A DNA stretch of 64,000 nucleotides from contig NC_054712.1 in assembly GCF_016097555.1 (NCBI RefSeq), positions 47,090,571-47,154,570 of the forward strand, read 5' to 3'. Positions 36,482 to 63,143 of the stretch are shown here, one piece after another. The notes under the pieces are model-generated. The model was not told where the DNA came from, made no database searches, and saw nothing but the letters and a program-made list of their open reading frames with translations. A program made the position numbers and the translations under genes. The stretch comes from Gigantopelta aegis (Eukaryota; Mollusca; Gastropoda; Neomphalida; Peltospiridae). Position 1 is the stretch's first letter, and every line of letters begins with the position of its first letter.

Positions 36482-36655
36482 TCATGAGAGTTTGAGCTGT
36501 GCAAAGTTTGTTGCTAGTTTGATGGCTTCGTCCAGTCCCATCACATTTGAACCGGTTGCCTGAGCCGACAGCTCTCGTCCGCCTCCCTTTCCATTAATTA
36601 TTGGCACAACCTGGTCGACCCAGTCCTTTGCAGAAAGACCATTTGTAGCTTTCCC
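36482..36655 (-). CDS. AARS1: AARS1 exon 22 (last)
   Basis: Residues 909-965: [29 protein letters not shown] and [11 protein letters not shown], then TGA. The glycine-rich GKGGG block is the C-Ala signature. Confidence 0.96.
   Translation of the reverse strand, partial: GKATNGLSAKDWVDQVVPIINGKGGGRELSAQATGSNVMGLDEAIKLATNFAQLKLS

Positions 36656-63143: not shown

Follow-up and report, generated by a model that had tools for sequence, protein, structure and literature searches.

Why the edges of exons, splice sites included, should recur in tandem in the neighbouring introns is the question raised by a window of 64,000 nt (the whole stretch of DNA analysed) from Gigantopelta aegis, a deep-sea vent snail and thus a mollusc (GCF_016097555.1, NC_054712.1, positions 47,090,571-47,154,570, forward strand). 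The window was selected because of this pattern and comes from a single assembly of the species. The original prediction had claimed that at least six exon edges of AARS1 are copied nearby, that splice junctions are favoured places for such arrays and that no described mechanism is known to make minisatellites begin there.

Repeats of this kind have a name, 'mirages', which is said to have been coined in a 2002 paper on Adh. They are known from amphioxus as tandem repeats across the exon-intron boundaries of Adh3, the globin genes BflGb6 and BflGb9, troponin C and PGBD5 (PMC3087553, PMC3902484), the last two having been added by PMC3902484. According to the available parts of these two papers, they occur at donor and acceptor borders, their units measure 10 to 160 bp and many copies keep their splice signals; splicing is reported to be undisturbed, the edge units escape homogenisation, and somatic instability is reported for the Adh3 mirages. 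The kind of repeat is therefore a described one, although PMC3087553, in the part available, also calls the mechanism unclear.

The locus and its gene models

AARS1 (cytoplasmic alanyl-tRNA synthetase) lies at 36482..63143 on the minus strand and has 22 coding exons and 21 GT-AG introns, encoding 965 amino acids. The Pfam domains tRNA-synt_2c, tRNA_SAD and DHHA1, together with a comparison with the PDB, identify the model as the cytoplasmic alanyl-tRNA synthetase, and the annotated G. aegis protein (P0001) is 100% identical to it over 965 aa. ANKS6, also on the minus strand, has 13 exons inside the window, and 679 of its 679 modelled residues match the G. aegis isoform X2 (P0121), a label which implies that another isoform exists. 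MRPL52, on the plus strand, is a predicted model built from exon joins and Pfam; the acceptor before its exon 1 is inferred and is counted among the 74 junctions (37 donors and 37 acceptors) modelled in the three genes. The annotated proteins may themselves be predicted in part.

Copies of exon borders

The junctions were scanned for nearby direct copies of their borders, with inverted copies at the identical junctions as the control. Among the 42 junctions of AARS1, a direct copy with a score of at least 43 was found at exactly six, the donors of exons 4, 5, 6, 17 and 18 and the acceptor of exon 12; the direct-copy score at the remaining 36 is at most 36, and inverted copies reach 40 at one of the 42 junctions and 44 at none. 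These are the six edges of the original prediction, five donors and one acceptor, and the copy numbers span the range that it gave, from one decayed copy (exons 4 and 5) through five (exon 18), 6.9 (exon 12) and 11.0 (exon 6) to 20 (exon 17). Measured against shuffled introns, direct copies at 8 of the 74 junctions have a z of at least 4, namely the same six borders and the donors of ANKS6 exons 12 and 13, compared with none of the 74 for inverted copies. Lower thresholds give 9 direct against 1 inverted (z at least 3) and 11 against 2 (z at least 2.5). When the lengths of the pieces and flanks were altered, direct copies at 8 and 10 of the 74 junctions reached a z of at least 4, with no inverted copy on either occasion; 200 bp of intron lost AARS1 exon 4 and gained the acceptor of ANKS6 exon 7, and 500 bp gained the acceptors of AARS1 exons 14 and 17. 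Seven of the eight junctions are thus independent of the settings, AARS1 exon 4 being the dependent one.

The border copies at this locus are thereby confirmed. They span the border and stand in tandem with it, in several copies at AARS1 exons 6, 12, 17 and 18 and ANKS6 exon 13, and with one seen at AARS1 exons 4 and 5 and ANKS6 exon 12. Exon and intron follow one another within them in genomic order, in direct orientation and adjacent to the border, so that spliced RNA was not the template. Both types of boundary are affected in this strict set (seven donors and one acceptor), the excess of donors being weak by itself (about 0.035, one-sided, for 37 donors and 37 acceptors).

The exon 17 donor of AARS1 (true exon 42468-42576) carries an array at 41544..42470 on the minus strand, as all AARS1 copies are (TRF; z 7.1). 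It consists of 20 full units of 44 bp and a 22-bp half unit, each full unit repeating the end of the exon together with the donor and 22 bases of intron. Eight nucleotides between two AAGGT repeats are missing from all 20 full units and are retained by the exon, whose length at this place is kept in the six orthologues compared. The loss is therefore derived; it arose in an intronic copy that was later amplified, so that at exon 17 it is the intronic form that has multiplied, and duplication and amplification are separate steps. Six consecutive 44-bp units are identical, from which it is plausible that turnover is still ongoing, and by eye the divergent units lie chiefly at both ends, as in the amphioxus clusters. 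Thirty nucleotides of the unit occur again at 43873..43902 (minus strand; score 48) in intron 16, on the opposite side of exon 17; with this stretch and the array set aside, the best match to the unit in the window scores 35. Upstream of the exon 17 acceptor, intron 16 also holds two stretches that weakly resemble the interior of the exon, one at 42632-42668 (z 3.8; the junction reaches 4.1 with other settings) and the other, seen by eye only, at about 42743-42780.

Downstream of exon 18 (true exon 40447-40572), five donor copies in unequal decay occupy 39898..40446 (z 25.1). They have two spacings, of about 130 and 75 bp, and this presence of more than one spacing suggests that the border was hit in more than one round. 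The single acceptor case, exon 12 (true exon 49174-49343), has 100-bp units upstream at 49344..49982 (z 21.8), each with the acceptor and 70 nt of the coding exon start; TRF places the array at 49274-49959, with 6.9 copies including the true one. At exon 6 (56217-56362), a 17-bp unit is repeated over 56039..56225 (TRF 11.0 copies; z 5.5), the last 9 bp of the array at the donor side being exonic. The copies at exons 5 and 4 are single and decayed: that of exon 5 (57939-58083) lies at 57862..57919 (z 9.4) and comprises 41 nt of exon and 9 nt of intron, and that of exon 4 (58857-59048) lies at 58612..58654 (score 58; z 4.1), its z falling short of 4 when 200 bp of intron are used. By eye, a truncated SINE was duplicated together with the exon 4 border.

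The 39-bp array of ANKS6 had been said to fit the same pattern, and it does so. It runs from the donor of exon 13 (2816-2870) over 1..2842 on the minus strand, in 72.7 copies by TRF where the window edge clips it, with 27 nt of exon and 12 nt of intron in each unit (z 15.3). Three further junctions were absent from the original prediction. The donor of ANKS6 exon 12 (3552-3732) has a decayed copy at 3449..3509 (minus strand; z 6.9), with 53 nt of exon and 9 nt of intron. At the donor of ANKS6 exon 8, an array of 23-bp units (7865..8047, minus strand; TRF) extends 4 bp across the junction, and a 27-bp array at the MRPL52 exon 1 donor (27199..28910, plus strand; TRF) begins 1 bp inside the intron, the donor being at 27197, and is interrupted by insertions in its later part. 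A 42-bp repeat at the ANKS6 exon 7 acceptor (10011..10135, minus strand; TRF score 98) is a weak candidate, with a z of 2.7, or 4.6 under other settings. At these last three junctions, ANKS6 donor 8, MRPL52 donor 1 and ANKS6 acceptor 7, the scan in its initial settings found no exon copy with a z of at least 4.

We also considered whether array copies convert the exons beside them. The copied border codons give no sign of such overwriting, with private residues at 6 of 78 as compared with 43 of 878 elsewhere, and the idea is unsupported.

Decoy splice sites

Donor strength was scored with a simple matrix built from the 37 modelled donors. In the exon 17 array, 18 of 72 GT sites score no lower than the true donor, and in the array at ANKS6 exon 13 the figure is 54 of 336, so that the annotated proteins imply the use of a single donor with up to tens of copies of equal strength behind it. 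The annotated AARS1 and ANKS6 proteins agree with the exon-proximal models, and the residues of ANKS6 X2 beyond exon 13 are compatible with the exon-proximal donor; from this agreement we infer that the exon-proximal site is used and that splicing is undisturbed. If reading continued beyond the true donor, it would run into a stop after 1 to 114 nt at eight of the eight donor-side exons checked, and the use of a decoy would therefore often be harmful. ANKS6 exon 13 is an exception: the length of its unit, 39 bp, is divisible by three, the first two copies continue the frame of the exon, and their decoy donors are in frame and ahead of the stop. Use of the first would add 13 residues, which the annotated X2 lacks. 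A coding array was rejected because a stop follows 92 nt beyond exon 13.

The many copies that keep a donor-like sequence might be taken for functional elements, such as a docking site for U1 snRNP or an enhancer of splicing. Such a role fits badly with the copy regions of exons 4 and 5, where 0 of 18 and 0 of 3 GT sites, respectively, are as strong as the true donor, with the acceptor nature of one array and with the two arrays that have no significant exon part, and we consider it very improbable. If the arrays are no more than ordinary mirages, they still offer a natural test of how splice sites are chosen.

A proposed mechanism for border arrays

We think it probable that the arrays are minisatellites of the mirage type, which began as local tandem duplications across a border, were tolerated because splicing stays with the exon-proximal site and then grew from the intronic copy. 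The process would begin with a local tandem duplication, presumably made by slippage or end-joining, that by chance extends across an exon-intron border. The duplication would survive because it places the copy within the intron and the exon-proximal site continues to be the one spliced. Donor copies would be better tolerated than acceptor copies, since a decoy donor stands behind the true one and a decoy acceptor ahead of it; the seven donors among the eight junctions would fit a decoy acceptor in front being the worse of the two. Ordinary minisatellite turnover (slippage and unequal exchange) would then amplify the intronic copy and not the exon. Finally, the copies would decay or homogenise, and the same border could be struck anew. 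Like the use of the proximal site, the instability and the age of the arrays are inferred.

The likeness to the amphioxus mirages, as the available parts of the papers describe them, is close: tandem copies span the border, on the donor and the acceptor sides, and splice signals are present in many of them. The differences are that G. aegis is a mollusc and not a cephalochordate, that a single gene has six affected borders and its neighbours have a further two to five, and that a two-step history can be read at AARS1 exon 17. With ordinary intronic minisatellites the arrays share the runs of identical units, the divergent ends and the half unit, but their units contain coding sequence and a splice site. 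In the open-licence literature searched, the name led to the amphioxus work and one unrelated review, and the parts of papers available describe mirages in amphioxus only. Repeats in an earthworm metallothionein intron (PMC12783039) were considered as a parallel and set aside because, in the part of that paper available, they do not concern splice borders. The kind is already known, and the mollusc case suggests a wider spread, one that can be checked genome by genome.

Duplications that carry splice signals can have another outcome. In potato, a tandem duplication across an intron-exon boundary of RdRp made a new intron, and in fission-yeast genes a 24-bp exonic AGGT segment is present several times, as cited there (PMC4974935, available part); a similar proposal has been made for an amphioxus globin gene (PMC3087553, available part). 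The G. aegis arrays resemble the potato and fission-yeast cases in being tandem duplications with splice signals, and could on these grounds be remnants or precursors of intron gain, whether by the Rogers model or by the border-duplication route seen in potato. They differ in that the copies stay intronic and can number 20 or more, and no new intron or exon was found. In the models the copies are wholly intronic, alignments to the 12 orthologues used cover 100% of the AARS1 protein, and a comparison of the full-length AARS1 with the annotation and these 12 orthologues revealed no new intron bounded by duplicated splice signals in the models. We regard intron gain as improbable, if a little less so than a function in splicing.

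Are borders hit more often than other places?

Two rivals to the mirage-type origin that we favour concern where the duplications start. Splice borders may be true mutational seeds, some property of exon edges raising the local duplication rate; transcription pausing, R-loops, a nucleosome edge, a step in base composition or microhomology of the splice signals are the candidates. Alternatively, chance and survivorship may suffice: young minisatellites are many, the genes are dense in exons, and copies anchored on an exon stay recognisable for longer because the exon does not decay. We hold the two to be equally credible, each at somewhat under an even chance.

Counted per base, with a local copy scored at 40 or more, direct copies are found at 126 of 563 intronic anchors (inverted, 60 of 563), 6 of 42 junctions and 5 of 98 mid-exon anchors. 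The introns are therefore more repeat-laden than the junctions, as chance and survivorship would have it, and a claim of enrichment depends on counting independent duplication events. Since one array fills many anchors, we set the per-base anchors aside as an enrichment test. The event count started from 39 clusters, of which 9 mobile-element pieces and 2 of low complexity were removed; the remaining 28 were merged by eye into 20 events, for which six unit lengths were estimated from the spacing. A junction is spanned by 8 of these 20 events, where 2.4 are expected (P 0.0009), and by 5 of the 13 TRF arrays with a score of at least 100, where 1.1 are expected (P 0.002-0.003); with arrays that abut a junction added, the counts are 11 of 20 events and 7 of 13 TRF arrays. 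The sorting by eye also gave nine events confined to introns, among them 33 copies of a 45-bp unit, and these speak for chance and survivorship. So do the copies of exons 4 and 5, single and decayed, which are easier to see beside a conserved exon.

A test by distance, which uses TRF arrays only, is harder to reconcile with chance and survivorship and favours mutational seeds. Of 13 arrays, 5 lie within 10 bp of a junction, where uniform placement predicts 0.35 (P 1e-5), and 6 lie within 25 bp, where it predicts 0.84. This test omits the 39-bp ANKS6 array, whose intron is clipped by the window, and includes the 42-bp repeat with its TRF score of 98; the TRF array of exon 18 is scored as a miss, since the copy nearest the junction is outside that TRF row. 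By eye, the TRF percent matches show the junction arrays to be no more decayed than the intronic ones, and so the easier detection of old copies cannot be the whole reason for their number.

Against mutational seeds stands the choice of a window for its pattern: the figures for the whole window include AARS1, the gene that prompted the work, and we accordingly read them as suggestive. Without AARS1, a junction is spanned by 2 of 10 events when counted strictly (P 0.30), including the ANKS6 array that the original prediction had already pointed out, and by 5 of 10 when counted liberally (P 0.0018); the distance test then gives 2 of 6 arrays at 10 bp (P 0.014) and 2 of 5 at 25 bp with a score of at least 100 (P 0.059). 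The event P for 5 of 13 rises to 0.04 if the target for duplication is half the sequence and to 0.18 if it is a third. The copies, moreover, take in anything between about 9 and 70 nt of exon, so that they share no breakpoint at a fixed distance to the junction.

The preference for junctions is thus upheld in one sense, for the window exceeds simple placement nulls, and weakened in another, for the excess comes mostly from AARS1 and is not seen per base. Inside the window, the data support, suggestively, borders being hit more often than other places. That in G. aegis, and perhaps in a wide range of animals whose genomes are unstable, junctions are preferred birthplaces of minisatellites, with exon edges seeding a sizeable share of the young intronic arrays, is a conjecture that we put forward tentatively and at rather less than even odds. 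If repeats do start from borders, the edges of exons would be hot spots of mutation and a source of decoy splice sites and of raw material for new exons and introns.

Other repeats in the window

Arrays of an 87-bp unit are found in opposite orientations in an ANKS6 intron (8410-9355) and an AARS1 intron (46465-46991), as judged by eye from the TRF consensus; the same unit in the introns of two genes points to an array family that moved around. By eye, 19240-25400 resembles a virus-like mobile element that has long ends in inverted orientation and a frame similar to an inhibitor of apoptosis, an element which we take to be of the Polinton/adintovirus type; it seemingly lies within a DNA-transposon remnant and contains a run of N at 24600-24799. 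Inverted repeats with gttcat/atgaac ends, at 37240-37370 and 45783-45942, appear by eye to be a small dispersed element.
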